A stretch of 64,000 nt of DNA, taken from NCBI RefSeq assembly GCF_963675165.1, contig NC_087381.1:2418001-2482000 (forward strand), in the 5' to 3' direction. Shown piece after piece: positions 18,501 to 63,667 of the stretch; within the stretch, counting starts at the first letter, position 1, and every line of letters starts with the position of its first letter. The stretch is from Halichondria panicea. Lineage: Eukaryota > Porifera > Demospongiae > Suberitida > Halichondriidae. The position numbers and the translations under genes are program-made. The notes beneath the pieces were generated by a model that was not told the DNA's origin, made no database searches, and was given only the letters and a program-made list of their open reading frames with translations.

Positions 18501-21500
18501 CAGATTATTTATACCCCACAAAAAACATTTTAAGGAAAAAATAACACTTTATATTTTCATTCCCTTAACCATAATTATAGCCAGTTCTTTCATGACTCTA
18601 AGATTACTTTATTGAACAGTTTCAATGAAATTTCATCGGACTTTCCAATATGGCTGGACGAGCTTCGTTGCAGAGGAACTGAGAGAAGACTCACTGATTG
18701 TCTTGCTAACACTATCGGAGTTGAAGATTGCACCCACTCACAAGATGTGGCCTTGGTCTGTACTGCAAGTAAGTAAGGGATGAGTACAAATAGTTTGACA
18801 GTGAGTATGCAGTCATGCAATGAACTCGTTTTATACATATATACAGCATAATTATTATTGTGTACTATCAGGCTATTATGACATTGTAGTATATACATTC
18901 ATTATTGATCACTGCATTCAGATGGAGACTTGAGGCTGGTAAGCAACTCAGGCCAAACAAGAGGCTCCTCTGGCAGACTGGAGATCTATTACAATGGACA
19001 ATGGGGGACAGTGTGTGATGACAACTTCGGCCCAAATGATGCAAGAGTGGCTTGTCGTCAACTAGGATTCTCATCCTACAGTCAATATGGAACAGTTGGA
19101 ACGCTAGGGTGAGTGTATAAGCTCATATTAATTAACTTACTCGCCATCACTGAAACACCCATCTTGAAGAGACATGAATCAGAATAATGATTACATTATT
19201 CCATGCACATGTAGTTTCAATGAACTCCTATCGGACTCTCCAACATGGCTGGACGAGATTCGTTGCTTAGGAACTGAGAGCAGACTCATTAATTGTCCAG
19301 CTAACACTATTGCATGGAGTTGAAGATTGTGCCCACACACAAGATGTGGCCTTGGTGTGCAGTTCTACAGGTAAAAGTTGCATAACTTACAACGTTATAA
19401 ACATGTACAGCCGAGTGCATGGCCTATACTGTTGATAGAATCAATTGGGTAAACTGCACAAAACAATTAATGCAGTAATTGCACTAGAATAAGAATTCAA
19501 AATAATATACCTTTGGACAGTAAATGGTTGAAGTAGTAGTCCTATATAAGCATAATTATATGTAATTCTAATAGCACAGAGTCATAAGAATTATACGTAT
19601 AGAATATAATATATAACTAACAGCAAATCATACCCACAAATAAGAAAAAAATGTACATGTGTCCCACCTATATGTAGAATAATTATTTTTTTGCAGGGTG
19701 TATCATATAATAATTATTATTGAAGTGGAGGGGGGAAATAAAGGCACTCGGAGTGTGTCGCCGGCTAGGGGAATCCGGGGCTGGAAAATGTTTGTTAATT
19801 AGGTGCATGGTATATTGGTGAAATCTGGTGAGTTGAGGTTGCCTTTGCATTCTCAGTCATACAACTATACCGTTTTGTTGAACAACACAACGACTTTAAT
19901 AACAGCTTACCAGATCAAACTTTATACTGCAGAGCTCACAGTAACACCACAAACAGCCTCTCCTACCACTACTATACCTACTACCTCTGTAACAACAACA
20001 ACTGCAACAGGTATATGCTTGTGTTATATTAGCCTCGATTCCAAGCCGATTAAAATACGGCCTGGTGTACCTATTGCATGGTGATAGTGCGCATGCGTTA
20101 GAGTTTATTCACCAGAATCTGGGGAATCCTCTTTTTTCTTTCTCTCATCTATTTTCTATCTTTGTACATCAGCTTAGCTCTCTATTGCGTTGTTCCAGAA
20201 GGCTTTAACACTAGTCTGAAGCCAGAAGAGGCTCTCATCTACCTCTATGACGGTTGTATGGTCAGGATGTCTTACCTTGGATCTGTACAGGCTATGGGAA
20301 GTTGTATGGTGCCTCAAACTGCTACTCGCGAAGACAACCCGGCTATAGGACCATCCTAGACGTAGATGAGAGCCTCTTCTGTCATAAAACTAGTGTTCAA
20401 GCCTTCTAGCCAACGCAATAGACGGCATAAGCCACAGCTTCACAGAACTCAGTCATAGAGATAAAGCATTACGGAACATATATTCTTATTTCCTATAATT
20501 TACTAAGGTTTTACGTTTATAGTACAATTACCCATATTCTGGGTAATTTGAAGCGCATGCGCACTATCACCCCTGCAATAGGTACCAGGCTGTATTTTAA
20601 TCGGCCTTGAATCGAGGCTAGTGTTATATATGCCATTGCGTATATATATAGGTATTCAATTTGAGTGGGTATGATTTCTGTGTCGGCTATCTAATTATAT
20701 GATCAGATTTGTCATGCATGCGTGATGCCCCATGCATGACAGGTGCATGTTGGCACATAACATTTCCTTACACACTGCATGCTGATTGTGGATGTGGTGT
20801 TTTGTGTGCATGGCAAATGCATGGTTATAGCAAATTTAGCTTGGAATGTGGTATTTTGATACTTATTAGTCTGTCATGATTATTTGTGGTTCTCTTGCAA
20901 AAGGGCTGTGTTTATATAGCATGGATATAGTTATTGTACATGTATGATTATAAACTATATATACTCATATGCCAATGAACCTATACAATTAACTTTTAAC
21001 TCGGTTCAGATACAACTGGCATCATCATTGGATCTGCTGTTGCGGGGACAGTAATTGTGTTTGTCGCATTGACTTGCTTTATAGTTTGTTGTGTTGGGCT
21101 CCTCAAACGAAGACAGTTGAAAGCAAAACAACTTACAATGATGTAAATTATGCCGTAATAATGCACTTAGACCATGTATGCAGTATACAAAGCCATAGAA
21201 ACACTAAAACTCTATGTAGGTATGATCTTGACGCATTACCTAATAATGCTATCAATCCCTCGCTGTCGACTCCTTTCAATGACACACGACAATCGATCCT
21301 GAGTTCCACCACCAACAAGATGAACAGGACAGAGTTGCCGCCAAAGTTGGTACCACGATTTCCAACAGCCAATGCTTGTACGTATATGTTACATGATGAT
21401 GAGTGTTAATTACGAATGCATGCATAATTTAATTGATTTTTAAGCATTATCGCATGGTATACATGTAGTATAATTTTAAACAATTGCTGGGCCTGTACGA

Positions 21501-30330: not shown

Positions 30331-33300
30331 ATGGGCAGTATTGAATCAGTTGCAGCTGCCCCCCCTGCCTGCAGTTCAGTCTCCTTCACACTAAACGGTT
30401 TCCCAGTGAGTGTAGCAGATGCAAGTCCTGGAGTCAGCTTGAACCAATGGTTGAGGTCTCAGCCTGGACTAACTGGAGCCAAGAGGATGTGTGGGGAAGG
30501 AGGCTGTGGGGCCTGTGTGGTGGCCGCAAGTGTACCGCACCATGGTGATGGGGAGACGAGTGTCGCAATCAACTCAGTGAGCTCTAATACTTGCATATAA
30601 ATGGCTATTATAGCATGGCATAATGTCAAGGTACATAGTAAGGTATTATAATTATTGTCTTGCTTTTATAGTGCCTGTGTCCCATCTACTCCATTGAAGG
30701 GTGGTCCATAACCACTGTGGAGGGTATTGGGAGGTAAGATTGTGACTAAACATGCTAGATCTACTTTAATATCTATTAAAGTAAGTATTTCCGTACGGAC
30801 AAGTTTGGGTATAGACCACTAAGTGCATGTCTCAGTATAATATTATATGCTTGGTACATACATCATTATAGAACCATCCTTTGGTGCCAGGAAGTTAAGA
30901 CACAGTGAAATTCAGTGGTACCATGTATATGCATGAAGAAATATGTTTGAGGTTGTTGTATATAGAGAGCCAATCTATACTACCGTGTATAATTATGACT
31001 GTAATCGACCCTTGCACATGCACACACACACACACAGTTCCAAGGTTGGTTTCCACCCAATCCAGACAGCCATTGCTGAGTACAATGGCAGTCAATGTGG
31101 CTACTGCACTCCAGGCTTTGTCATGACCATGTACAGGTGAGTATAGGCTAGCGAAATGCTCTGTATTATAGATCAGAAATATGGGCAGGGAATGTACTAG
31201 CTTCGATTCCAGGCCACTTTCAAAGGAGAAAGACTCTTTCTCCAGTGTTAAAAAGGCAGGTTTTGTTTAATCAACCACGTGGGTGACCATAGGACTATTA
31301 CTGAAACAGTACATGGATATATATACCAGGTCCTCTTTTCACTAAAATTGAGGCCGAAATGTACAGACTGCATTTCATTCTATTTTTGACCTGATTATAA
31401 CTTCCAATCCTTTTATGCTGTAATTATTCGCGAGTGATATTCATTCATTGCATTTTTGTTATCGTATACGAAAAATGTATGTTAAAAATGTCGCCTTAAA
31501 ACATTTTAGCGTTAACACCTACTAAATATCAGGTAATAATTATGTTTTTTACTTAGCTTGCTTCAGAGGAACCCCCAACCTACTGAGAGAGAAGTGGAAG
31601 ACGTGTTCGACGGGAATATTTGCAGGTGTACTGGGTATCGTCCGATCCTGGATGCTATGAAGAGCTTTGCCATTGACCACACCCCCACCACCACCGCCAC
31701 TCACCATATTGCTGATATTGAGGTAAGCAGTCCACGTAACGAAAACAAAGGCTATACTGTTGATTTTTACTTACTCATACCAACAAATAAATTGATGCAT
31801 GTGTCTAATTGCAACTACATGAAGTGCATTATGTACATGTATCACATGGCAGCTATCGGCTAAATCCTGAATTCCATATGAAGCCTCAAGCAATTAACTA
31901 TAATTATTTGCATTAACTGTTTGCAATTCCCCCTTCTCCATGCACAGGACCTTTCTCCCCGAGTGTGCTCTGATGTTGGTGACTTGTGCTTGGATCTAGG
32001 CCGAGGATTGAGGAGGACAATCTTTGACCCTCAGTGGTACCGTCCCTCCTCTTTGTCAGAGCTAGTGGCGGTTGTCAGGGGTAATGAGGGGAAAAGAATT
32101 GGGCTGGTAGCCGGAGACACTGGAAGAGGTCTGTCACACTTTGAGATAATAGTATATAACGTAAAAGCAGAAAATAAACTTATAACTATTTAAGATCGAA
32201 GGGCAATTAAGCTGCTGCTTCAAACTTGTTCTATATCTCAGTGCATGCATGCTTTAATAATTAATTTTATAGCGCTAAATAGAGCAATTGAGCCATTGAG
32301 CATTCTTACCAGCTGGTTGTAACTTCAATCCCCCCCCCCCCCCCCCCCCTCTCTCTCTCCCTCTCTCTCTCTTGCACATGCACATTCAGGGGTATTTAAA
32401 CACTCACCACGAGATGAGGTGCTTATTGATTTAAAGGCTATTCATGAGTTTAGCGAAATAAAGGTCAGTCACTATCAAAATGTGGGTGTGTCTCTGTCAT
32501 GAATATTGTAAGAACTATTGTCAATTAGGTGACAATTTGCTTCTCTGCAACTGTATTGCATGAAATCTTCCTGCTAGCTGTAATGATGTAATCGATCGTC
32601 ACCAGCATATACCTCTCCCTCCACAGGTAACCCCCAGTGTCCTTATAGTGGGTGCCTGTGTGAGCATCTCTCGATTGGTGGAAGTACTCCTTAACAACCC
32701 CACCCCCTCGTTTAAAGTCCTGAGTCAGCACCTGCTCATGGTGGGCAATGTCCCCGTGAGGAACGTGGGTACATGGGCGGGTAACCTCATGTTGGTCCAT
32801 AAGCATAGGGACTTTCCCTCCGATGTCTTCATCACACTGGCCGGACTTGGAACTACAATCACTATCGGTAAAAGGAATGTTTTTGATGTTATAATTCTGA
32901 TATGTAGAGCTTGCTTTCAGGTGCATGTTTAAAATTGAATTTTCCAGGCCATCATAAAATTCATTCCATGTAATAGGTCGCTTGTCAGATCTATCCACTG
33001 TTGACATGACACTGTGGAAGTTTCTGGAGACAGACATAAAAGACAGTGTAAGCATATACATTATAGTGATAGCGTGTATACACATATACATGAATACTAT
33101 AATTACTTGAGGATGTTGTCAAAAACTGTTCACATGAAATTGTCAGTTTATGTTTAATCAGAGTTTCATAATTAGAGTTTCAATTCCACAGATTATTCTC
33201 TCTGCGTCCATCCCTGTCCTTCCTGAGAGTGTAGTCTACCAGAGCTTCAAGATTATGCCCAGAGCTGTGGTATGCATAATGAATTAAGTATTATACATGT

Positions 33301-36300
33301 ATATCTACCATACGGCCATGCATGTAGTAGTACTGTAGCTTGTGTAGTACGTAGCCTCTAGTATTATTTAGTCGGTCAATATATATGCTGTGTGTACATT
33401 GTACAGAGCATAACTGCATTGGCTACGAGTTATATCCATAATGATAAAGCCATGGCTTTGTGTACAGGGCTCATTAAATTTCAAGATTGCATAATTATTA
33501 AGGGTATAAATTATATACTAGTCAGATTGAGAGCACTATAATAATTATCATACTATTATTTTCATCTCCCCAAAGAACTCTCATGCTTACGTCAACGCCT
33601 CCTTCTGTGCCAAGGTGGGGGAGGGCTCAGTGATAAAGGCCACGCCCACCATCATCTACAGCGGACTCACCAACAAACCAGTGTGTCTATATCTGTCTCA
33701 TATGTCATAGTTATGCGATTACTAATACACATACTCAACATTTTTCAGGTTTTAATGACGGCTCTCTGTGATTACTTGGTGGATAAAGATTTCTCTGATC
33801 CGGCCACCCTTAAAGGTGTGCTCTATTTCTTTACATAAGTACAACTTCTCCCTTGTGGTTGAGTTCCTACAAATTTATAATGCTCTCTTTTAATCATTGA
33901 TTGCTTTTAATTTGTTAACATGTCGTACCTAACAGCAATTCTTGATCACTAATTTCCTTCCTTGTTTTCAGATGCTGTGGACATCCTGAGCAGTTTAGTC
34001 TTGCAGGACACACCTCTTTCTGCCTCGTCTGAGTACAGAATGAGCCTGGCAACAACACTGTTCTACAAGGTATAATATGTAATATTCATTTGGCGATAAC
34101 ATTTTTATGATGATATGTATATGCATGGTTACTCAGAGCGTTGACTCTTTAGTGTAAGTGTATATGTAGTACGTACTTTACATTCCCCTAGCTCAGAAAA
34201 TTGTAACACACACACACACACATACATCTAGTTCATCGTTTGTATCCTCCCGAAGCCGCTCCCCCCTTCCCTCCAGTCAGTGGTTGTCCCACCCACCAGA
34301 GCTGTGTCAAGAGGCAAACAGCTGTTTTCTAGTATACCCTCCGAATATCCGATAACACAACCGCTGACAAAACTGACCGCTAAGTTACAGGTTAGAAATA
34401 ATATTATAATGTCACTTATTTAGTTGAGTCTATGATATAATTAACATCTCGGTAAATGCATTGGAGATGTGATTTGTGCAGGCCGGCCAGCTGGGATATA
34501 CAAATACATTATACAAACTGGGCAGAATAAGAATTATAATTTTTGTCTAATACAATTATGTATGTGCCCTGCTTGATTAATCCTTAACCTAGTATCAGGA
34601 GCAAATGAGTAGATGAAGCTATGCATAGTATTGCGGAATCAGTATTGTAACTTGTTTGTAATGTGCTAAGTGCTCTGTACATAACGCGTTTGACTAAATA
34701 ATTATAAGTACAATGAAATGTCAGCACTTAATTAGCGGTGTGACATAATTATAATTACGGCAATATTTGTACACCAGGACAATCAAATCCGCGTAGTAAG
34801 ACACTCTATCTACTCATGTGCTCTTGATAGTACACACATGTTGTGTAGTGTGAAAGTTGCCAGCTGTGCACGCATGTCACCCCCTTATACAGGCGTCAGG
34901 TGAGGCCCAGTATATCAGTGACTGTCCTGTCCTACCCAAAGAACTAGCCGCTGCTTTCGTCCTAACCACTATGGCACGTTAGCACATCCAGTGTATATCC
35001 TGTATTGATAACATCTTTTTTATACTTAGGGCAATGCTGAGATAATATCAATTGACTGCTCCACTGCTAAGGTATGTCTATTATTTTTATGCCCTCTCGT
35101 TTGATGCAATTTCTATATCTGTACTATTCTAGAAACTGCCTGGCTTTGTCAAGATGCTCACATCAAAAGATATTCCCGGTGATAACAACTTCATGTCTGA
35201 TCGAGATGCTGAGATCCCTGAAGAAGTAATTAAGTGATACAATAATTATTCATTTCGTATAATAATGCATGGGGAGGTTTATTAAGACACAACGAAGAAT
35301 GAGGTTAGCACCTCCGTGTTTAAAGGTCCTTTGACATGTACCATGTAAGCATATTAAGTAATTCCATCTACAGCACTTTTTAGGTAAGATAATCACACGA
35401 AGAAGTTATAATGTTGAACTTCCAATAATTGATTGTTCAGAAGCAATTGATGAATTGATACTTTTGTGAATCAGTCAGAAATGCAGCCCGACTTTGCATA
35501 CTTTTAGTTTAGATCATTTTTGAGAACCAACCACCAAAGTACACATATAGCCGCTTGTGTCAATACCACAGATTGTATATATAGTTAATACGGCAAAGTT
35601 GAGCGTATGGTTTTAGCTAAGCCATGAAGTGCAAGTACAGAGTGAGATGGTTCTATTCTAAAGGAGCCCTACTTGTTCTGTTCTGGTTTCTGCTTATCAC
35701 CTTTGTCATCATATCAATGTTCAGAATTTTGCCTCCTCCAATAACACTTTCAGCAAGTTCTTATTGGGTGCCTGATGTTTTGTTACTTCTGTCAGTGTTG
35801 ACGGTGCCACTAACAGGATGGCTGGCTGACGCAAAGTTTGGAAACTATAAAGTAGTAAGATTTGGTGTATTGCTTTTATTCCTTGCTACTATTTTTAATT
35901 GCTTCTATTACTTAATTGAACCATTAAATTTTGTAGTTAACGTTTTGGTTCTGAAATGGTTTGTGTTTGTGATAAACGGTTTGTTTTTGGTAGGATGTGT
36001 TGGTTGCTCTTTAGTATTATTTCAACTGGGTATGGATCAGATGCCTGATGCTTCAAGCTCCAGCATTTGCAGCTTTATCACTTGGTTTTCATGTAGTGGT
36101 GTATTGGGAGCCTATTTAAGCAATGTTTTATATAATCTGAAGGTAGATTGCTTGGATGTTTCATTGCGTACCAACTACCAACAGGTTTGGAGCTTACTTC
36201 TTGTTCTATCTTTAAGCTGTGTTCTTATTTCGGATTTTTGTCTCTCCAAAAATTGGCTAATAATTGAACCAAAGTCACCGAACTCTCTCAAAATTATCTA

Positions 36301-39300
36301 CCAAGTTCTCAAGTTTGCAGCCAAGCACAAAGCTCCCCTCAATCGTAGTGCTCTCACATACTGGGAGGAAAATGTACCTTCAAGAATGGACCTCGGAAAG
36401 TCGAGATATGGTGGTCCATTCACTACAGAGCAAGTTGAAGATGTAAAAACTATGTTTCGTATTTTCTTTGTAGGTGTATCATTAATGGTGATTGGCTTGG
36501 CTATTTCTTTGCATCCAGACGTTGTATTGATGCCCAGTGGTCTGAACTTATGTAATTCGCAAATCGTGAGATTTGTTTCATATGATGAGACTTTATTTTT
36601 CATACTTTGGACTTTATTTCATGAGTTTCTAATATTTCCACTGCTTAGAGACAGGCTTCCAAGTATTCTAAAGAGAATAGGAATTGCTGCATTTCTTTTG
36701 TTTGCTGTGAGTTTGATATGCTTGATTCTGAAGCTCATTAATTATCACTTTGAAGGAAGTTTGATAGCAATTGATTGGACTGTTCCTATACTTTACAAAT
36801 CAATGCAAGGATTGCTTTCTCAAACTTTTGTCACTTCAACAGTTGAATTTCTTTGTTCCCAATCACCATACAGCATGAGAGGTCTGCTTACAGCATGTAT
36901 AACTATCTTAGGTATCTTTTCCTCAATGCTTGGTTTTGGTACAAGGTTTTTTTTGGAGAAATACACTTGTGACACAAGCTTGTGTTTTCCTATTTCTTGG
37001 TGTGTGGAAGTAACTCTAAGCAGTATTGGACTAATCTTTTACTGTGTTGTGGCTCGTCGGTACAAGAGAAGAGTGAGGGGAGATGGTTATTTTGCACAGA
37101 CAATTGTGGAAGAAGTTTATGATCGTTATCTCACTCCTAGAGACAACTAGTGACAGAATGTATATTATATATATAGCTATACGTATAGTACAGAATTGTA
37201 TATAGAAGGTTTAGATGTTTAGATAATTAAATGTTGTATAGCCGGGAAATGTTTGTGAGGTGGCAAAATTTTGTTTTTTCGAGGGCAGAGCAGTGCCAAG
37301 ATTAAAACTCCCACGCACCAGCATTCACATGCAAAGCTACTGGTGGGTGTGGATTCCTTGCAAATATTAAAACCCACCAACATTTCTGCTGAGGGCTCTG
37401 GAGCCAAATAGTGAAAATTTGCACCCATGAAAATTTCCCGCTCTACAGTAGTTAATAATGATAAGATCTACATGGAAACTACAAGAAAAGTGCCTCAGAA
37501 GAGGTATATACAGTAGACTCTCGTTAATCCGGCCATCTTAATTTGTGGCAGTGCAGCTTGGCCAGAATAGCGAGGTGGCTGTATTTCTAATGACTAATTT
37601 TGCGGTTCTGTCTCGAGGATAACGAAGGATATGGATCATTCTACTCTCTAATCCAATTTTATCTGCCAAACCACACCCAAAACGTCTTACCTGGCTGTAA
37701 CAAACGTATAAAATACCTAGTTTGGGGTAGCCAGTGCTGGCCAGTATATACGGAATAGCGAGTGGCCGCATTTTCAGGGCGAGTTTTGTGCAGTAAACAT
37801 ACATCTAGCTAGCAAACTGTGCCAAACCAAATTGCCGGTATATCGAGGTGGCCGTACTTCAGAGAGCCGGAATAGCGAGAGTCTACTGTACTATGAGACT
37901 TAGTATACCTACAACTTACTTATATTATAGTATCCTATTAGCCAAGCCTCGAGGGAAAGGTTTGCGCATGCGCACAGTATGTAAATGAATAAAATCAGAT
38001 GTTTTGTCGGTGTCCATGTGGTTTAGAAGCCCTCAGGCACTCGTAGTACCCTCGTTATGCTCAGGATATACTAAAGCAATACACCTTTGGGCTTCTAAAT
38101 CCCATGCACAGACACCTCTAAAACATATTATGATATTTTGGTTAGTATATATAATAATTATGCTAAGTTAAATAATCATGCTAAAATTGTACTTGACAGT
38201 CGTTTTACTGATTAAATTGTGCACTAATACGTATACTTTTAACAGGTGTTTGCGGAGAAAATATCGCAATATGCTGGTCAACCTGTTGCTCTGGTACTTG
38301 CTGGTGAGTATATCTGTATGAAACTGGCATCATGCACCTGTGTTGTCTTTGTTGCTTCTTACATGCACGTAAAATCTACAAACCTGCAAAGGACTATATA
38401 CATGTACTTTTAGGATTGTGTGGTTCACTCTTGCCTTCTTAATATTGCATGTGTTATATACAATACATGCATGCATGCACGTGTCCATCAAAAATTATGA
38501 ATAGTGAAGCGTGTTAATTTGTTATAGAAAGGCTGCCGTATACAAACGATATAATCATAGAGGTGATACAGTAACTATAATTATGTTCACACATTAACCA
38601 TCCAGGCCGAGTAACACATGCAACCATGCACCCCCTTCTGTATATAGACACACAGGAGCATGCTGATAGGATTGCTTGTGCTGTGGAGGTCACTCACAAG
38701 ACTCTGGGGCCACCCATACTCACTCTGGAGGAAGCCATTCAGAGACAGTCTTTCTTCTCCAGTCCTCGCAGAACCGAGCGGAAAGTGGGAGACACTGAAG
38801 GTGTTAAAAATGCAACAGTGTCGAGTATACCAGTGCCTATAATTTACCTCTATAAGTGTACTAATTATGGTAGTGCATATAATTATGTCTGTTTGTATTT
38901 GTTAAGCATTAAAAAATGACTCTCAGAGTTTCAAGCACTTGAATACATTCAAGAAGTTGCAATTTATCGCTTATTAAAATGACTTGTGTATATAGCTGCC
39001 ATGTCTGGTGCTGATCACGTGATCACGGGCAAAGTGGAACTCGGCTCTCAATACCATTACCACATGGAGACACACACAGCCGTCGTTATTCCGGATGAGG
39101 GTGGGTTTAAAGTCCAATCTGCCACTCAATGGGTCGACAGAGTACAAGCCGCTGTTGCTATGGTGATGAACATCCCAGCAAGCTCTGTAGATGTATCAGT
39201 GAAGAGGATAGGAGGTGCTTACGGTGCCAAGACCACCCGTCCCAATCTGGTAGCTGCAGCTTGTGCACTCGGTGCTTCAGTTACTGGGAGGTAAAATTGG

Positions 39301-42300
39301 CAAATCAATGCAGTCACTGTGGCTTTAATACTAAATGCTATAGCATTGAGAATGGCCCCAAAAGTTTTGTGATCAATTATGGCATGGGTGTTGTATAACT
39401 GGTTATTAAACGCCATGGATAGACATTAATAAATAAATTATAGCTGTTAGGAGATTATTACCTATATACAGCATGCATACAGAGAAGTGCTTTTTAACAT
39501 GCAATCCAATGGTGACATTTTGAATTTGAACAAAGACAACCAACGGCTACAACAAAGTGATGGTAACATTAAGAGGGCCATTCTTAGACTTAAAAATCTG
39601 ACAAATGCTTATTTTCTTGTTTTAAATGAGATTCTATATTAATATCCAGGCCTCATGCAGTTTAATTCGTTTGTTGAGCATTTTTAGCTGATCGTAATTA
39701 TTTTCTCTTTACGGAATAAATCTTACACTATTATATGTAACTGTCAACATGCACCGCTTGTACACAGGCCAGTGCGTATGTACATGGATCTTGAGACGAA
39801 CATGAAGGCCATCGGGAAGAGATTCCCGTACATGGTTAGGTACAAACTAGGCAGCACTAAAGAAGGAGTCATCACGGCTATAGATGTTGAGATATTTGCT
39901 GACTGCGGTGTTGCCCCTAATGAGAATGCTATATCTGTAGTGAGAGACTTCATTGACAATGGTACGCCGCGAGTTTGTCTCTAGTAGTATGTTTACAGTA
40001 TATATACATATGAATGTACGTGCTCTTTGTTATAATTATTGTTGTGGTATATATGGACTGCTAGTATACATAATTATGTGTTGTATACCTTGTTGCTTAC
40101 ATTGTATCCCAATTAAAAGGTATCTCACTCCTTAGCGTACTACGTTCCCAATTGGAAGATTGCTACACAGCCATGCAAAACAAACACACCCGCCAACGTC
40201 TTCTGCAGGTCACCAGGTAATAATGCATGCATGTGTACTCAACTGCATGTGAGGTATACTGCGTGTGAGGTATACATGCAGTGAAATTTAAGTTACAGTA
40301 CATATACATCGAACATTCTTTAATGGCATATTGCATAATAATTATAATAGTATTACTATTATAGTGCACAGTGTGCAAAATAATTACAGGTGGCCACTGG
40401 CCAATTTTCGTGCACTGATGCAATTAACAAATTGCCAGCAAATGATCAGCCAGTGCATCCGATCAATCGTTTTGGGTGTGTGCTTCCTCGCACGCGCAGA
40501 ACAGTTTGCACAAACGTGTTAAAAATTGCTAGATCGTGAGATTATTATACTTAACAGTTCAAGAGATGTATCAAGACGAGTATTTATAGTGTTATGTAAT
40601 TGTTACATTCTCTTTAGGTACTCTACCGAGTATCTTTATGATGGAGACCATGATAGACCACCTCGCCACCTCATTGGGCATGGACGTCGAGGTTGTCAAG
40701 GTAGCCAATCTATACAAGAATGGTCACATGACTCTTGTCGGGAAGGAGCTGACTAACTGTAACATGTCGAGAATCTGGGAACGTGAGTTTTAATGTATTT
40801 ACGACTGTACGTAGAATAAGTTTATGTGAATTGGTATCAGTGAAACAATATTCTCTTGACATGTTATAGTGCGAACACATCTTTCAATTTATTCAGAGCT
40901 GTACCAATCTGCTGAAGTTGACAGAAGAAAGAAAGAGATTTCTGAATACAACAAGGTGCTTGACAGCTAGCTTGTTGTGTTAACTTTTTGTTGTAAAACA
41001 TCATTTACATGCACGATGATGTCATAATTGTTTCACATATACACTGTACAGACGAGTCGGTGGTACAAGCGTGGACTGAACATGATGCCACTGAAGTACA
41101 CTATCAACTGGGCGGAGGCCACACCCTATTACGTGACAGTCAACATTTACGCTGAGGATGGCACAGTGGCCATAGCTCACGGTGGTGTGGAGATGGGCCA
41201 GGGGATAAACACCAAGGCAATTAAGACCTTGTGTGCAGTATAGTATATAGACACTAACATGTATACAACTGCAAAAAGTTTGTATTACATGTGCACATAA
41301 AGGCTTGATTTTATCATTTCTCCGGCGACATAATTATTGATTGTGTAGTCAACTGTTTGAGCCAAGTACTAGATAACTCAGCCGTACAATTACAGCATAT
41401 CAATTGGAATACGTCTATTGGATAATTTACCTGCATGCTCCCTCCTCTGATAGGTAGCCCAGGTGGCATCAAAGGTGTTGGGTGTTCCCTTGGAGAAGAT
41501 ACGCATCAAGCCTACGGACTCCATGCTCAATCCCAATGGCATATGGAGTGGAGCCAGCACCACCAGTGAACTGAACTGTCTGGTGAGCCAAACATAAAAA
41601 TCATACTGTTGAGCCTTCAAAAATTGACCTCTGAGACTTAGCCAATCACTTACGTTCACACTGGCTCTTATATTCACTTTTGTGGCATGTGCAGGGGACC
41701 ATAAATGCTTGCAAAGAGCTGAATAGTCGCATTGACAGTATCAGAGAGCAGATTCCCGGACTGGAATGGGAGGACCTTATACAGATGGCCAGCAGTGCTG
41801 GGGTCAACCTATCAGCAAGGGCATTGTCAGTAATGTCTGTATAATTATCATGCATGCCCACATAATTATATGTACAATGCATGCATGTAGCTATAGTAGG
41901 CTCTAAGTATAATATAAGAGATTGAGTGTGTTGGCAAGAATGGCGCTAACGAGTTAATTCCAGTCTAACGTTTGCACTCAAGTATTGTCTCCTGATAAGT
42001 ATGATAGAAAAAAGTATTACTGTATAATTATAAAGTACCTGACTGAGCTTTTAATAGCGTGATCACGAAATACTTAATCTAATCGTGTCTTTATACCTGC
42101 AGTGTGTCTGAATCTTGTGACGGCAAGTTCAATTACGTTTGCTGGGGTAGTACAGTAACGGAGGTGGGCGTGGACGTGCTGACGGGGGAGACGAGGGTGG
42201 AGAGGGTGGACATCCTCTATGACTGTGGGGACAGGTAGGGGAATAGGAGGAGCTTATATTCACATTTATTTATGGATGAATGTATTGAGATGAGTATAAT

Positions 42301-47025: not shown

Positions 47026-47268
47026 ACTGATATAACTACTTCTGAATAGCAGCAGGCTAGCAGGAATAGTTAAAATTATACTATAGACTCTAGTTTGTTT
47101 TATTTTATAGTCGCAAGAGTGCATGCACGTTGCACATTGCAGTCTATATCAGAGTTAATCAATCTACACTTCCGGGTGCCAATTTCTATATAAACAGCTG
47201 CATGTTATGATAATTATGTGCACAAAACTGTTATAAAGTTGCATGCAGCTAAAGACTCTATAGCTGCT
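47026..47268. promoter_or_regulatory. Shared bidirectional promoter region of the RING-TRAF-kinase pair
   Basis: Only about 243 bp separate the two start codons, so both 5' UTRs and promoters must lie here. A TATA-like 'tctatataaac' lies near 47185 facing gene B. 'ataattat' and 'gcatgcag' palindromes are also present. Confidence 0.55.
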
Positions 47269-49270
47269 ATGGCAAGTTATGATCAGAGAAATGTGTTCGA
47301 TCTACACCAGTATCAGTGGTCTTTTATTGATAATCCAATAACAGAAGACGATTTGTGCAGTCGATGTGGTAAAATCCTCAAGGAACCAATGCTAACTGAA
47401 TGCTGTGGAACACATCTCTGCAGAACATGTGCTGAGCCTGACTTCATTGAAGGAAAACTTAATGAATGCCCTGGTTGTAATCAGCCGTCTGTTACGTGCA
47501 TCCTAGATAGACCAAAATGGAAGAATATTCTTTGTTTAAAAGTGAAGTGCCCAATGAAAGAAAGAGGTTGCCAGTGGAATGGAGACATTCAAAGCATCCA
47601 CGATCACTTGACTGTGGACTGCAAGTATATGGATTTTGAGTGCAGTAATGGATGTGGTGAGAGTCTTGAAAGACATGATCTCCCTGATCATCTAGAAAAT
47701 GCTTGCCCCAAACGCTCTGTGGCATGCCAACATTGCAATCAAGTGGGTGCATTAGAGAACATTGTTGGTGATCATCTTTTTATCTGCTTTGAATATATTA
47801 TTCCTTGCCCCAATGGTTGTGGAGAGCAAATAAAGCAGTTTAGTTACTATAATCAACATTCAGAAGATTGTACCCACTTGATTGTACCATGTCCCTTCAA
47901 TTTCGTTGGTTGTAGTGCTCTATTTGAGAGAAGGTTGATGCCCCAACACCTTATAGAAGACAATCAAAAGCATACTCATCTTCAGTCGAAATTCATCTGC
48001 AGCAAATTAGAAAAGAGAAATAACGAATTTCTTCAGCAGATGGAAGTAAGTGAAAGGCTATACAAATACTATCAAGAGGTGAGCAAAATGAATACTGATG
48101 AAATGAGGGAGTCAATTGAGCAACAGATAGAACGTACTACTTCAAGACGTGCGCAAAAGATTGAAAATGGTACAAAGAAATCAATTCAGAGAATTGTCAA
48201 TTGCGAGAATAGATTTGAACAAACACATAAGCATCTGGAAAACACAGTGAAAATGTTGTTAACAAAAGCACCCAATACACTGTGGGAAATAAACCACAAC
48301 GTGATTCAGTTCGAAAGTAAACTGTATTCTGGTCAATTCAGTGAAATATGGACAGGACTACATCATCGAAAGCATCAAGTTGCTATCAAAAAACATAAGA
48401 CGGGTTCAATGACGCCATCGAAATTCCTTCAAGAAGCGTACATGCTGAGCACTCTACATCATTACAATATTCTGACACTCCATGGTGTAGGCACAAGCCA
48501 AGAACCTCTCCTTATTGTCACTGAATATTTGATTCATGGTAATTTGATCAACTTTTTTAATAGCACGAAGAAGGAAAACTTTAGTGTTGGCCTGAAAATG
48601 ATTGAGCAAGTGCATGGCATCTGGAATGGCTTATCTTGAGAGTGTGAATTGTATTCACAGATGTATTACGTCTCGTTCAATCTTAATTGGCAACAAATTC
48701 CATTGCAAGATAGGAAGCTTCTCGTTAGCTCGAAGGTTGAAAGAAGGTGAATTTGAATATAAAATTCCACAAGGAGAGAGAGTACCAATCAAATGGTCTG
48801 CACCTGAAGTTCTTTCCGAAAATGTATATTCCGTAAAATCTGATATTTGGTCATTTGGAATTTTACAGTATGAGATTATGAGCCACCATACTCTTAAAAC
48901 GTCTAATTCAAATCTCATAAATACAGAATACAATTTGAACCGTCCTGAGGATTGTGAAGAGGAACATTATAAACTCATAGTTCAATGTTGGAGTGGGAAC
49001 CCTGATATGAGACCTTCTATCAGCATGTTTTTAAATTTAAATACTGCAATTTATAGCGTTGCTGACGTAGACAAATTGGCTGAGAATGAAAAAGTTGATT
49101 CCAGCTTAGATCTAAATAATGAAGAACTTTATGTGGATGTAGGATCAGACCCACGAGAAGACAACAGCCAGAAACAAGGCCCCAAGGAAACTCCTTTTGA
49201 CGAGGAAGACCCTTGTGATGACCTGAGCGCTATTGACGAGGAAGAAATTTATGAGAAATTTACCTTTTAA
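47269..49270 (+). pseudogene. RING - TRAF zinc finger - kinase-like gene B, broken by a 4-bp CATG insertion
   Basis: The ATG at 47269 matches the start of gene A. RING (CSRCGKIL, CCGTHLCRTC, CPGC), TRAF zinc fingers (CSNGCGESL, CPNGCGEQI), coiled coil, then a kinase-like domain with VAIKKH. The frame 47269-48612 would continue as MIEQV, but CATG at 48613-48616 shifts it into TGA (48648-48650). Without those four bases the product reads MIEQVASGMAYLESVNCIHR and runs to 49270, about 665 aa. It would still be a pseudokinase: HRC instead of HRD, and SFS instead of DFG. The acidic tail has two possible SH2-docking tyrosines (EELYVDV, EEIYEKF). It may be a true pseudogene, a polymorphic allele or an assembly error; the rest of the frame is well kept. 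Confidence 0.8.
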
Positions 49271-50242: not shown

Positions 50243-51738
50243 ATGAGGTACAAGTTGCGATATTTCTACTCAAAGGGAACTTTTCTAGTTCTTGTGTAGA
50301 GAATGCTTATAACATCAACATCGACTTTCCTATTTCTTATGCTCACCAAATCAGGAGGTATCCATTGGCAAACCAATAAGGATCCAAATTTCGATGATTG
50401 CATTTATCCCCATAGTGGGCTGGCTAGCTGATGTCAAGTATGGAAACTTCAAGGTGTTTAGGTTCGGTGTACTGCTATTATTTGTTTCAACGGTAATGAC
50501 CTGTATTTTTCTGATAATTAAAGAAGAGGGAGTTCATCCGACTGTTACTAGGGTTGCTACAACTGCAGCTGTGTTAGGTGCTTATCTTGGAGTTAGTGCA
50601 TGCATATATAGTAACAGCTCTTCAGCTATAGGCTTGGATCAGATGCCAGATGCTTCGTCTGCATGACAACATTATAAGTTTTATAAAGTGGTTCATTTTT
50701 TCAGCTCTCTTTGGTGAATGGAGCAGTGAAGTAATCATAAGAAGTACAAAAGTATGTACTTCTGTAGTACAAAAGTATGTACTTCTGTAGATCCTGACAA
50801 TAAATTCAAGTCTCTACCCAGTGTTTGCTATGAGCATTCTGTGCTATAGTATATTTCTTTTAGCCCTCAAATGGCTAATAATTGAACCAAAGCCACCTCA
50901 ATCCCTCAACATCATCTACCAAGTTCTCAAGTTTGCAGCCAAGCACAAAGCTCCCCTCAATCGCAGTGCTCTCACATACTGGGAGGAAGACATACCTTCA
51001 AGAAGGACCTTGGAAAGTCGAGATATGGTGGTCCATTCACTACAGAACAAGTTGAAGATGTGAAAACATTCTTCAAGCTTATTGTTATCCAAATATCATT
51101 ATTTATTGTCTCATTGTCATTTCGGAAATTATTTGTACATATTAATCACCAACCATTAACCTCCTCTGTCGACATAATTATATGCACTGCTTCACTTATT
51201 AGTCTCTTCATTTATCACCCATGTGTCTGTGCAATGTTAGTAATGCTTATCTCAGTTTATAGTCTATCCTCATTAAAATGGAACCACCAAGTATCCTGAA
51301 ACAGATTGGATTTGCTTGCTTCATCATTGTGATAGCATGGAATATTGAGTGCAGAATTTGTGAGCTATTTCCATGATATACAATTGAAATAGCTAGTTCA
51401 ATTATTGATGGTCTTGTTCACATTTCCTTCTTGACAAATACGTACTGTTCTGTTGTTTGCTTGTGCGCAATCTCCATATAACATGCGTGGTTTATTGGTG
51501 GGATTTGCATTATTACTTCACGCCTCATCATTAAACCTTGGTGAAGTTTTCTTCCATACCACGATGAAGTTTTGCGACAAATGCTACTTTTATCAGCCAT
51601 GGTAGCGATCACTTTGTTTTGGTACTGTCTCCTGGCTCGCTGGTATACAAGAGGAGAGTTAGAGAAGTGGAATACAATGCACACAGAGTGGTGGAGGAGG
51701 TCTATGATCGATACCTTTCCAACGACATGTACCACTGA
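50243..51738 (+). pseudogene. POT/SLC15-like transporter pseudogene (copy 2)
   Basis: It is closest to the intact copy at 52704-54209. Breaks include a TAG where the partner has TGG in the first helix, short insertions near 50604 (TATA), 50629 (TA), 50662-50665 (CATG) and about 51438 (TACGTA-like), and a TA near 51649. A 22-bp motif is also duplicated at about 50738-50788 (AGTACAAAAGTATGTACTTC), and there are single-base shifts. Recognisable parts: [50 protein letters not shown]. No full product is possible. Confidence 0.9.
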
Positions 51739-54209: not shown

Positions 54210-54417
54210 ACAATACAACTAAGATATAATTATAACAGAGCAACCTAGTATACGTATATGAATGTATTCATAAACTTTTTTCTTCACATAATTATGATAG
54301 TCATTATTAGCTTTATTTGTCTCTTAGTACGTACAGTCATGCACTGTGTGGTTTCATTTTACCTCTGTGTATCCATCTCGTCTTCCACACTGTCCAATTG
54401 TGTATAATTATCATTCG

Positions 54418-55265: not shown

Positions 55266-55360
55266 ACAGGGATCAGGTGATGCCTGTATATCAGTGACTA
55301 TCCTGCCGTACCCAATGAACTAGCCGCTGCTTTCGTCCTAACCATGCACTATAATTATTA
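55266..55360 (+). pseudogene. Decayed copy of oxidase exon 14
   Basis: It matches 34893-34973 closely, including 'tatatcagtgact' and 'gaactagccgctgctttcgt'. Two insertions split the end: TGCA (55345-55348) and an ATAATTAT-forming block. The donor after ATG reads gtacgt here, whereas the functional gene reads gcacgt. Confidence 0.8.
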
Positions 55361-58168: not shown

Positions 58169-58482
58169 TTGATTGTTTATAAGCATTTGATGAAATTTTT
58201 TGATTGTAAAGCATTCAGAAATGCAGCCCTACTGTGTGCAAACTTTTAGTTTCATTTGAGAATATCGTATACATGATGATGTAGCTGCAGCCATGCTTGT
58301 GTTGATGCCACAGACAATAATTGATTGTTCAGAAGCACTTGATGAATATTTGCTTGTAAAGCATTCAGAAATGCAGCCCTACTGTGTGCGTGCTAAGTTT
58401 CATGTGAGAAGTCAATAAATGTAGCTCTTGTGTCAAATGCAACAGATTGTAGTGAATTCGAATTTGAACGTATGGTTTAGCC

Positions 58483-60012
58483 ATGAAGTGCAAGTACAGA
58501 GTGAGATGGTTCTATTCCAAAGGAGCACTACTTGTTTTGTTCTGGTTACTGCTTGTTACATTTGTCATCATATCAATGAATCAGATGATTTTCTTGCCTT
58601 CCATAAAATATTCAACAGATGGCTATTGGATGTACGGTGTTTTATTGCTTCTGTTAATTTTGACGGTGCCACTAACAGGATGGCTGGCTGACGCAAAGTT
58701 TGGAAACTATAAAGTAGTAAGATTTGGTGTATTGCTTTTATTCCTTGCTACTGTTTTTAATTGCTTCTATCACTTAATTGCACCGTTTGTAGGTAACGCT
58801 TTGGTTCTGAAATTGTTTTTGTTTCTGATTTATGTTTTTTTAATTATAGGATGTGTTGGTTGCTCTTTAGTATTGTTTCAACTGGGTATGGATCAGATGC
58901 CTGATGCTTCAAGCTCCAGCATTAGCAGCTTTATCACTTGGTTTGTATATTGTGCTATATTAGGAAGCTATTTAAGCAATGTTTTATATACTCTGAAGGT
59001 AGACTGTTTGGATGTTTCATTGTATACCAACTACCAACAGGTTTGGAGCTTGCTTCTTGTTCTGTCTTTAAGCTGTGTTCTTATTTCAGATTTTTGTCTC
59101 TCCAAAAATTGGCTAATAATTGAACCAAAGTCACCTAACTCCCTCAGAACCATCTACCAAGTTCTCAAGTTTGCAGCCAAGCACAAAGCTCCCCTCAATC
59201 GCAGTGCTCTCACTGCATACTGGGAGGAAGACATACCTTCAAGAGTTGACTTGGGAAAGTCGAGATATGGTGGTCCATTCACTACAGAGCAAGTTGAAGA
59301 TGTAAAGACTATGTTTCGTATTTTCCTGGTAGGCTTGTCATTAATGGTGATTGGCTTGCCTATTTCCTTGCATCCACACAATGTTGATATACCTAGTGGT
59401 CTGAACATATGTAATTCACATATAGTGAGATCATTTTCATATAATGTGAATTTATGTTTCATAGTTTGGACTTTATTGCACGAGTTTCTAATCTTTCCAC
59501 TGCTTAGAGACAGACTTCCAAGTATTCTAAAGAGGATAGGAATTGCTTCATTTCTTTTTGTTGTCATTAGTTTGATATGCCTGATTCTGAGCCTCATTAA
59601 TTATCACTTTGAAGGAGGTTTGATAGCAATTGATTGGACCGTTTCTGTACTTTACGGATCAATGCAAGGATTGATTACTCAAACTTTTACCACTTCAGTA
59701 CTTGAATTTCTTTGTTCCCAATCACCATACAGCATGAGAGGTCTTCTCACAGCATGTATAGCTGTCTTAATTATTTTATCTTCCATACTCAGTTCTGGTA
59801 CAACTTTTTTATTGAAGAAATATTATACTTGTGAGGCAAGCTTGTGTTTTCCTGTGTCTTGGTGTGTGAAAGTAACTCTAAGCAGTATTGGACTAATCTT
59901 TTACTGTGTTATGGCTCGTCGGTACAAGAGAAGAGTGAGGGGAGATGGTTATTTTGCACAGACAATTGTGGAAGAAGTTTACGATCGTTATCTCACTCCA
60001 AGAGACAACTAG
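58483..60012 (+). CDS. POT/SLC15-like (MFS) transporter (copy 4, intact)
   Basis: Intronless, 509 aa. It is the closest relative of the nested copy at 35624-37150, including the same start region and the tail [14 protein letters not shown]. It keeps [61 protein letters not shown] and [16 protein letters not shown] 3-bp insertion adds an Ala in the central loop (RSALTAYWEED against RSALTYWEE). It lacks ExxER, as do its paralogs. A decayed copy of oxidase exon 17 follows it. Confidence 0.88.
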   Translation: MKCKYRVRWFYSKGALLVLFWLLLVTFVIISMNQMIFLPSIKYSTDGYWMYGVLLLLLILTVPLTGWLADAKFGNYKVVRFGVLLLFLATVFNCFYHLIAPFVGNALVLKLFLFLIYVFLIIGCVGCSLVLFQLGMDQMPDASSSSISSFITWFVYCAILGSYLSNVLYTLKVDCLDVSLYTNYQQVWSLLLVLSLSCVLISDFCLSKNWLIIEPKSPNSLRTIYQVLKFAAKHKAPLNRSALTAYWEEDIPSRVDLGKSRYGGPFTTEQVEDVKTMFRIFLVGLSLMVIGLPISLHPHNVDIPSGLNICNSHIVRSFSYNVNLCFIVWTLLHEFLIFPLLRDRLPSILKRIGIASFLFVVISLICLILSLINYHFEGGLIAIDWTVSVLYGSMQGLITQTFTTSVLEFLCSQSPYSMRGLLTACIAVLIILSSILSSGTTFLLKKYYTCEASLCFPVSWCVKVTLSSIGLIFYCVMARRYKRRVRGDGYFAQTIVEEVYDRYLTPRDN

Positions 60013-60151: not shown

Positions 60152-60203
60152 AAGAGGTGTTCAGGGAGAAAATATCACACTTGAACAGCTAGGTGCTTGC
60201 TGG
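60152..60203 (+). pseudogene. Decayed copy of oxidase exon 17
   Basis: 'gaggtgttcagggagaaaat' and 'gtgcttgctggtgagta' match oxidase exon 17 and its donor (38246-38310). It lies at the same relative position 3' of the transporter as the functional exon. Confidence 0.75.
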
Positions 60204-60209
60204 TGAGTA

Positions 60210-61390
60210 GTATACTATGCTGTTATCTGTTAAACCAGCATGCATTCCGACTGTGTTGTTAATTCGTGTGTACACCGATGAAGTTGTAGTATAACCGAGT
60301 TACTTCATCTCATAGTTTCATCACCTCGCAAAGAATGGCACTTTTCTTTATAGGATTTTGTGGTTCACCATACTGTATAGCAGGTATAAGGTTTTGAAAA
60401 TGAGACAATTGAACTATATTATTGTTAATTTTAAACTCGACGATTATGGTGCATGGCATTACTTATCACGTGGGATATAATATACTGGGACTGAGTAGTA
60501 GACTATAGTGAGCTAATCAATTTGTAAGAAGAGAGACTCTGCATTACAATACAAAAGCACAAGAATTAATTTCGTATTAGCAAACTATACAAACGACAGA
60601 ACCAAACAACAGAACCAACAACAACTGAAAAGGGTAATGAATGGACAACTATATATTTATAAGAGTCAGGCCCCAGGGGGGTGATGATTGAGAATAATCC
60701 AGAATAGTCCAGAATAATCCGGAGAGGAAGGGTGCATGATAATCGGAAACCAAGGAAAAACTGTGATCACACAACATCATAAATGTGGTATAACAAGTGT
60801 GATAAATACATAACAAAACACATCAGGATAGAATAGGATAGGTCAAGATAGATCACAGCACATCATGAACAATCACGCTCTCGCCAGTACACAGCAACAG
60901 CCTATTCTGATTCAAACTTTGAAAAAATTTTCATGCCTAATCACGTGCTGAGATCCATGAAGTAGTGAATCTGATAATACTGAGTGCATGGGAAAGGTTT
61001 ATGATTAGCATACATATTGAACCACATCAAAGAAAGAGAAAGATAACACCGCCTTTGTGTTGAAAGGTTCTTTGGGAAGCTTCCCAGTGTACTAAGTGAA
61101 TTTGATGTGGCTATTATAATAATAGCACTTTCAAATTGGGGAAATTTCGCTTGTGAATCTCAATGCACATGCATGCAGACTAATGAATTTTAATGAGGCT
61201 CATCATTTAATATAATTATACTGTTAGCAAGAAAGATAAACATTTTTCCGTTTTATCGAGGTTTGATAATCAATATAAATACACACAATTAACACAACAC
61301 TCGTTTTTACACCGTCAATAAGAAAGTTAGACCTTAGACCTTAATTATGTTAAAAGCCTTTCCAAAGCCTTTTGGAAAACCTAATTAGTC
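60210..61390. other. Intergenic, with traces of the duplicated block
   Basis: 60935-60968 ('gctgagatccatgaagtagt') matches the end of oxidase exon 16. The following text ('cctttgtgttgaaaggttct') matches sequence just 3' of that exon. The rest shows no gene. Confidence 0.5.
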
Positions 61391-61392
61391 TA

Positions 61393-61945
61393 TTATGCCT
61401 CGGTGCGCATGCACAAGCGAGGTATACGGTAGTGTGGTTGTGTGTGTGTGTGTGTGGACCGCTACAGCTGCTCAAGGATGAATCAAGTGCAAGTAAGAGT
61501 TTCTATAGGCTTCTAGTCATGTTTACTTGGATTTTAATTCGTGGATTTGCAAAATAATGCTTTGTTCTCGAGTTATGCCTAGTTTTGCTTACTTGGAATG
61601 CCTTTTCAGAAGAGTCCGTAGCAAAACTTGTTCACCGAGTGTTACTACTCTACTTAGTAGTTAGCTCTGCATTAGAACGCTAGCTATTGGTAGCTGCTGT
61701 GCAAGAGTGAGCAGAGAGCTGCAAGGCTCTGCTGACTTGCAGCCATAATTTTAGACTTTTGGCATCGATCGTTTTTAACAACAATCATGGTTGATCATTA
61801 CCCACTATTCGGTTGATTGCATGCAGCAAAATTAAAGATGTTCATCATGATAATTATAATCAATGTGTGTATAAAAGCTAGCTATTAGTAGTTTTATGTT
61901 ATGTAGCTTTGGCACCTCCACCGAGGCATCAGCACCCGCGGTGCT
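61393..61945 (+). repeat. Interspersed repeat of about 500 bp (copy 4)
   Basis: Same-strand copy of 8204-8710. It starts 'tattatgcctcggtgcgcat', contains the (GT)n tract, and ends 'cacctccaccgaggcatcag'. It lies directly 5' of the last transporter copy's flank module. Confidence 0.7.
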
Positions 61946-62127
61946 TTCATTGATACATGCAGCACTAGGTGAATACATGTGTGAATCATTGGAATTGCTG
62001 CCTCACTCTATATGGTATACTTTTAGTTTCATTTGGAAATCATATAGATCTATAGCTATACTTGCGCCATGCCATAATATTATAGCTATAGTGGATACAG
62101 TGAAATTGGACACATGGTAATTAAGCC

Positions 62128-63667
62128 ATGAAGTGCAAGTACAGAGTGAGATGGTTCTATTCCAAAGGAGCACTACTTGTTCTGTTCTGGTTACTGCTTA
62201 TCACCTTTGTCATCACATCAATGCTCAAAGTTTTTCCGAGTCCTTCCACAACATTAACAAATGATTTATACACTTGGATGTATGGTGTTTTATTAATTCT
62301 GTCGCTTTTGGTTGGGCCACTGGCAGGATGGCTGGCTGATGCTAAGTTTGGAAACTATAAAGTAGTAAGATTTGGTGTATGGCTTTATTTCTGGCTACTG
62401 TTCATAATTGCTTCTATTACTTAATTGCAGACAACACTTTGGCCCTGAGATTATTATTGTTTGTGATATACATTTTGTTTATTGCAGGATGTGTTAGTTC
62501 TTTTTTGGTATTGTTTCAACTGGGTACATGGATCAGTCGCCTGATGAGCTAGATGCTTCAAGCTCCAGCATTAGCAGTTATATCACTTGGTTTGCTTGTA
62601 GTGGTATATTGGGAGCCTATTGTAGCAATTTCTTATCTACTTTGAAGTTGTTTTGCTTGCAGGATGTTTCATGGTACTCTAACTACCAACAGGTTTGGAG
62701 CTTGCTTCTTGTTCTGTCTTTAAGCTGTGTTCTTATTTTGGATTTTTGTCTCTCCCGAAAATGGATAATAATTGAACCAAAGTCACCAAACTCTCTCAGA
62801 ACCATCTAATATACCAAGTTCTCAAGTTTGCAGCCAAGCATAAAGCTCTCCTCAATCACAGTGCTCTCACATACTGGGAGGAAGACATTCCTTCAAGAAT
62901 GGACCTGGGAAAGTCAAGATATGGTGGTCCATTCACTACAGAGAAAGTTGAAGATGTAAAGACTATGTTTCGTATTTTCCTGGTAGGCTTGTCATTAATG
63001 GTGATTGGCTTGTCTATTTCCTTGCATCCAGGCTATTTAATATGCCCAGGGGTCTGAACATATGTAATTCACATAATTATAGTGAGATCATTTTCATATA
63101 ATTTGAATTTATGTTTCATAGTTTGGACTTTATTGCACGAGTTTCTAATATTTCCGCTGCTTAGAGTCAGGTTTCAAAGTATTTTAAAGAGGATATAGGA
63201 ATTGCTTCATTTCTTTTTGTTGTCGTTAGTTTGATATGCCTGATTCTGAAGCTCATTAATTATCACTTTGAAGGAAGTTTGATAGCAATAGATTGGACTG
63301 TTCTTGTACTTTACGGATCAATGCAAGGATTGCTTTCTCAAACTTTTTTCACTTCAGCAGTTGAATTTATTGTTCTCAATCACCATACAGCATGAGAGGT
63401 CTGCTTACAGCATGTTTAGTTATTTTGTCTTCCATACTCAGTTCTGGTACAACTTTTTTATTGGAGAAATATACTTGTCAGGCAAGTTGGTGTTTTCCTG
63501 TGTCTTGGTGTGTAAAAGTAACTCTAAGCAGTATTGGACTAATCTTTTACTGTGTTGTGGCTCGTCAGTACAAGAGAATAGTGAGGGGAGATGGTTATTT
63601 TGCACAGACAATTGTGGAAGAAGTTTACGATCGTTATATCACTCCAAGAGACGTACAACTAGACTAG
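62128..63667 (+). pseudogene. POT/SLC15-like transporter pseudogene (copy 5)
   Basis: It starts with the same [20 protein letters not shown] as its intact relatives but is broken many times. There is a deletion near 62385, CA plus a 9-bp insertion near 62525-62552, and an ATATA-type insertion creating a stop near 62809. Further insertions are AATT (63075-63078), TA near 63191 and GTAC (63653-63656), plus loss of bases near 63368. Conserved words survive in pieces ([19 protein letters not shown]). Confidence 0.9.

Follow-up and report, generated by a model that had tools for sequence, protein, structure and literature searches.

The window is a stretch of 64,000 nucleotides of the Halichondria panicea genome (C5:2418001-2482000; assembly of 131 Mb in 39 contigs). 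Positions given without a contig or locus name are those of the window, on the + strand. Tandem duplicates abound in the region. The segment 39998..52505 recurs as a tandem copy some 34 kb downstream (95.5% identity over 12582 columns), which serves as the main comparison. A very recent duplication is found at 33229-40000 (99.87% identity over 6774 columns); its copy begins at about 63996 and extends past the right end of the window. A RING-TRAF-kinase-like gene at 47194..49270 is split into two frames (47194-48639 and 48602-49270), and its kinase and TRAF zinc-finger matches are distributed over the two pieces. The tandem copy of this gene (L006:7193-9220) is intact and consists of a single open frame of 675 aa. 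Transporter-like frames of about 500 aa form a tandem family, including 35639-37147 and 58480-60009; a Pfam search gave nothing for the first and, for the second, just a weak MFS hit that falls short of its cut-off.

The rule under test is XY -> XY + rc(XY) + XY, by which four bases are gained (rc, reverse complement). The sequence-only reading had proposed it for five named sites and, as a GTAC/TACGTA-like event, for a sixth near 51438; comparison with relatives confirms it at all six. The coordinates of the six words were confirmed by reading the letters back. Any one insertion can be placed in at least three equivalent ways (TGCA, GCAT or CATG in the case of TG). The second RING-TRAF-kinase-like gene has TGCATG at 48611..48616, within its kinase domain; the CATG of this word (48613-48616) is absent from the 96% tandem copy and from the copy on C3. 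An SRCR exon copy carries TGCATG at 19311..19316, with a CATG (19313-19316) that is absent from two other SRCR copies in the window, at 16351 and 18618. The TGCATG at 50660..50665, in a broken transporter-like copy, is found in both tandem copies, and its CATG (50662-50665) is absent from the three other copies compared. The same broken copy carries TACGTAC (which includes ACGTAC) at 51439..51445; three relatives are without the four bases, and two of these have changes at adjacent bases as well. CATGCA lies at 55343..55348 in a putative oxidase-like exon remnant, and the exon copy at 34888-34968, whose letters were read directly, runs on without the TGCA (55345-55348). No relative aligned with this site in the automatic search for empty sites, and a second length difference from that exon copy lies just downstream. 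ACGTAC at 63651..63656 (GTAC, 63653-63656), close to where a transporter-like frame ends, faces an exact four-base gap in four relatives and a nine-base gap spanning the site in two more. AATT and AGCT events, beyond the words reported earlier, occur too: AATTAA in noncoding DNA at 61287..61292 (one carrier, four empty matches) and just upstream of a transporter-like frame at 62119..62124 (one carrier, two empty matches), and AGCTAG downstream of a transporter-like frame at 60187..60192 (six carriers, one empty relative). The last could represent a deletion or else an old insertion.

Gaps were taken from aligned duplicates on contigs C5, C15, C6 and C3. Those with an identical flank-insert string were merged (289 reduced to 261 in the first set); the merging was repeated for the full set, in which 488 distinct gaps were kept and some of the underlying aligned pairs overlap. 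Gaps near another gap, which number 5 among the 75 four-base ones, are excluded from the initial length tables and from the arm, flank-word, inverted-copying and direction tests, and are retained in the 488-gap counts, the binomial tests and the shuffle tests. By length, there are 104 gaps of one base, 101 of two, 49 of three, 75 of four, 18 of five, 27 of six, 14 of seven and 26 of eight. The rule is obeyed by 23 of the 75 four-base gaps. The others comprise 10 plain tandem copies, 6 of which are self-complementary, 9 ATAT -> ATAATTAT, 8 TATA and a remainder of 25; 46 of the 75 are self-complementary in some placement. When only the non-tandem four-base gaps with a flank match of two or three bases are considered, the rule accounts for 23 of 35 (C5a, 10/13; C15, 5/9; C6, 4/4; C5b, 4/9; C3, 0/0). 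Omission, from this figure only, of the nine gaps with a self-complementary XY leaves 23 of 26. The words already present in the window predict a share of 0.139 (binomial, 3e-17), and all 35 gaps give 3e-12 against the same share. Inserted words shuffled among 65 sites gave a mean of 4.3 rule-obeying gaps and a maximum of 10 (500 shuffles). A position-shift null, in which the word was moved nearby at 65 sites, gave 3.9 and a maximum of 9. The claim of a specific insertion process, made by the sequence-only reading, is strongly supported.

That these gaps arose by ordinary slippage of replication, or by deletion between short repeats, is very improbable. The plain tandem copies speak for it, and some of the rule-obeying gaps (4 of 23) could be deletions. 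Slippage requires, however, a four-base match, whereas the 23 events match two or three bases at the flank; a pre-existing unit of the inserted length, as in microsatellite slippage, was found in none of them. Deletion between two-base repeats would not select rc(XY) fillers at the share seen here. Birth of (TGCA)n microsatellites, which had been put forward as a possible cause, is set aside, since the flank match is of two or three bases only and several words are involved.

The direction of each event was assigned by a crude rule: one carrier and at least two empty relatives, insertion; several carriers and one empty relative, deletion. The 23 rule-obeying gaps are mainly insertional (insertion, 11; opposite, 4; neither, 8). 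Three of the four opposite-pointing gaps lie in the C15 or C6 arrays and the fourth is the event at 60187 with its six carriers. The 21 other non-tandem four-base gaps divide into 5, 5 and 11, the 8 ATAATTAT gaps into 4, 0 and 4, and the 8 TATA gaps into 2, 4 and 2, respectively. The same criterion classes the gap at 51484 as a deletion; its filler is something other than the reverse complement.

Two-base arms dominate, with 23 gaps against two (six-base) gaps with three-base arms, at c15:21456 (within a C run) and L095:7190. Inverted copying of adjacent bases is in excess among three-base gaps (8 against 2.4 expected), four-base gaps (25 against 7.0; excluding the 23, 7 against 2.9) and six-base gaps (7 against 3.0). 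No such excess is seen among two-base gaps (1 against 1.7), and no clear one was found among five-, seven- and eight-base gaps. These figures bear on a free double template switch at the replication fork, as in short-range template switching, which would need no special two-base end and would leave identical geometry. Words with longer arms fit it: three-base-arm words number 73 against 29 at second order (control words, 1.33) and four-base-arm words 15 against 2.8 (control words, 1.51). It would predict, however, a smoother series of arm lengths than one dominated by two-base arms, and its one-base version is not found among the two-base gaps; we regard it as unlikely. The dinucleotides of the 23 events are TG/CA in 14, AA/TT in 5, AC/GT in 3 and AG/CT in 1. 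TG/CA is preferred, its share of such dinucleotides being 0.203 (binomial, 2.5e-5). Doubling of a single dinucleotide also occurs in the aligned arrays and strongly favours TA (TA, 19; AT, 8; AA, 8; CA, 6; AG, GA, GC and CC, once each).

Two further classes of insertion with a fixed filler were distinguished. The first, ATAT -> ATAATTAT, is recurrent: it makes up 9 of the 75 four-base gaps, and 4 of the 8 examined were polarised as insertions. In the window it is found at 54288..54295 (aligned gap) and at 63073..63080 (two carriers, nine empty matches); the latter and position 96493 of the extended region are probably one event. Outside the window it is found at 85713 of the extended region, c15 21994 and 22390, L095:3549 and L096:4042. 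The palindrome ATAATTAT occurs 88 times (both strands) in random genome samples (L097-L113), against 3.6 expected at second order and 9.2 at third. The second class, TA -> TAGATCTA, has the constant filler GATC and was found at three sites, c15:16021, L091:1933 and L093:8461, which are empty in 2, 6 and 2 relatives, respectively; at L093:8461, ten additional matches differ in other ways. This second class resembles the footprint of a transposon.

Excision footprints of DNA transposons are the main rival explanation for the rule-obeying gaps as well. The XY copies would be a two-base target duplication, one flank of which gains two mirror (P-type) bases, and the product would be identical. CACTA-type elements can produce two-base target duplications, and the genome has 26 matches to CACTA-type transposases; the three TA -> TAGATCTA events and the fixed filler of ATAT -> ATAATTAT are what element ends would leave. 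Against footprints, reciprocal flank pairing at 26 sites, among the relatives covered, found filled loci in 0 of 104 paired loci (carriers included); 20 more left-flank matches were unpaired and carry no information. The largest gap inside the aligned pairs is 50 bases, although such alignments break at longer gaps. The filler of the rule-obeying gaps, moreover, is not constant and tracks XY. Footprints are considered improbable for this class.

The rule yields twelve words XYrc(XY)XY, in six complementary pairs, which were compared with other XY..XY words as controls. In the window, the twelve words are 2.68-fold in excess at second order and 1.65-fold at third (controls, 1.16 and 1.21). The second-order excess is 2.87 in noncoding and 1.45 in coding DNA, and the third-order excess 1.62 and 1.56, respectively. 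The samples L097-L113 are 17 random 3-kb pieces from 17 contigs, one all N and one partly N, so that 16 were readable. They give 2.13 for the twelve words against 1.15 for the controls at second order and 1.44 against 1.19 at third, all six words being individually above expectation. With a fourth-order background the contrast falls to 1.18 against 1.05. Since the contrast drops as the order of the background rises, and coding and noncoding DNA are about equal at third order, this imprint supports the alignments yet is weaker evidence than they are. General palindrome statistics show a modest excess and are not relied on, because mirror words and one swapped-letter control set are raised as well. 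A systematic assembly or polishing fault, already the least favoured cause in the sequence-only reading, is rated unlikely: an excess of the words is seen across samples from 16 contigs, and several insertions are common to duplicated copies (50662 in two copies, c15 11346 in three).

Two abundant dispersed repeat families have members in the window, at 1545-1853 and 61381-61956 (repeat-family candidates 1145 and 3488, respectively; 40 copies of each were scored). The 40 aligned copies of the first family have 10 insertions; a single one is four bases long, and this is a CATGCA event carried by one copy on C13. The 40 copies of the second have 20 unique insertions, none of which obeys the rule; two are four-base insertions, both tandem copies in one element. 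The arrays have 15 strict events per 1337 mismatches, from which 4.9 would be expected in the 438 mismatches of nearest-neighbour pairs from both families; 1 is seen there (P 0.04). Fast CpG substitution, or a bias of the best-scoring copies against gaps, could cause this shortfall. The second family, being without such insertions, indicates that the insertion rate is not uniform. In the flanks of the first family the word ratio is 0.84, one flank lying inside the repeat itself; its unique left flanks are poor in the words, with 7 over 2145 positions, or 3.3 per kb, where the window has 7.9 per kb.

The reading that we prefer, and hold to be moderately probable, is that a recurrent germ-line process makes two-base inverted micro-triplications, most likely by self-templated copying of a two-base 3' end. 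The product is exact and is found, with its TG/CA preference, at unrelated loci on several contigs. A staggered break, a nick or a stalled fork would leave a two-base 3' overhang or flap. The two bases would then template backwards, self-templated extension adding rc(XY), and joining or resumed synthesis would copy XY forwards again, giving XY-rc(XY)-XY. The length of the overhang would cap that of the arm, so that self-templated extension would yield exactly a two-base product. We infer the two-base overhang, the enzyme and the cell-cycle timing. The genome has 3 matches to polymerase X and 3 to polymerase A families, which indicates that candidate enzyme families are present and nothing more. 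Of the causes suggested earlier, snap-back or template-switch copying is the best-fitting candidate. More doubtfully, end-processing may be dedicated or unusually active in this lineage; this tentative suggestion is drawn from exact two-base inverted micro-triplications as a main germ-line class of four-base insertions and from the genome-wide excess of all six words. If the preferred reading is true, these events give a simple and countable mark of DNA ends or forks at which synthesis is self-templated; such synthesis is otherwise mostly visible through longer or messier events. They could account for the origin of many short palindromes, the four-base events would supply frameshifts, and a search for the signature would be feasible wherever a genome offers close duplicates or population data.

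The open-access literature searched yielded no account of exact two-base triplications that form a main class of insertion and leave their imprint genome-wide; short inverted insertions as such are already known. P nucleotides occur at receptor gene joins after hairpin opening. They are mirror bases, one to three in number, added at a DNA end (PMC3528771), as in the process proposed for the sponge. Unlike the sponge events, they imply no XY duplicate on the other side. Template switches in great apes likewise copy a local reverse complement and are able to create perfect inverted repeats; the median copied length is 12 in the reported set (PMC7954356), and a two-base zigzag would look like a plain short indel. 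Foldback inverted insertions in yeast are short inverted templated insertions too, there at broken ends. Most are of 5-34 bp and arise via microhomology with a spacer; for alternative end joining, the same paper mentions inverted insertions, local ones, that span about 2 to 35 bp, and insertions of 1-4 bp were excluded as hard to distinguish (PMC11724301). The closest order of parts is that of the small inverted triplication (copy, inverted copy, copy), which is linked to FEN1, flap processing and Okazaki ends (PMC13334657). The product S-rc(S)-S that defines an inverted triplication or double template switch is the one seen in 23 of the 35 flank-matched gaps. The arms of tens of bases, usually with a spacer, that go with such products were not found among these gaps: the small inverted triplication has arms near 150 bp and a spacer, whereas in the sponge the arms are of two bases and the spacer is absent.
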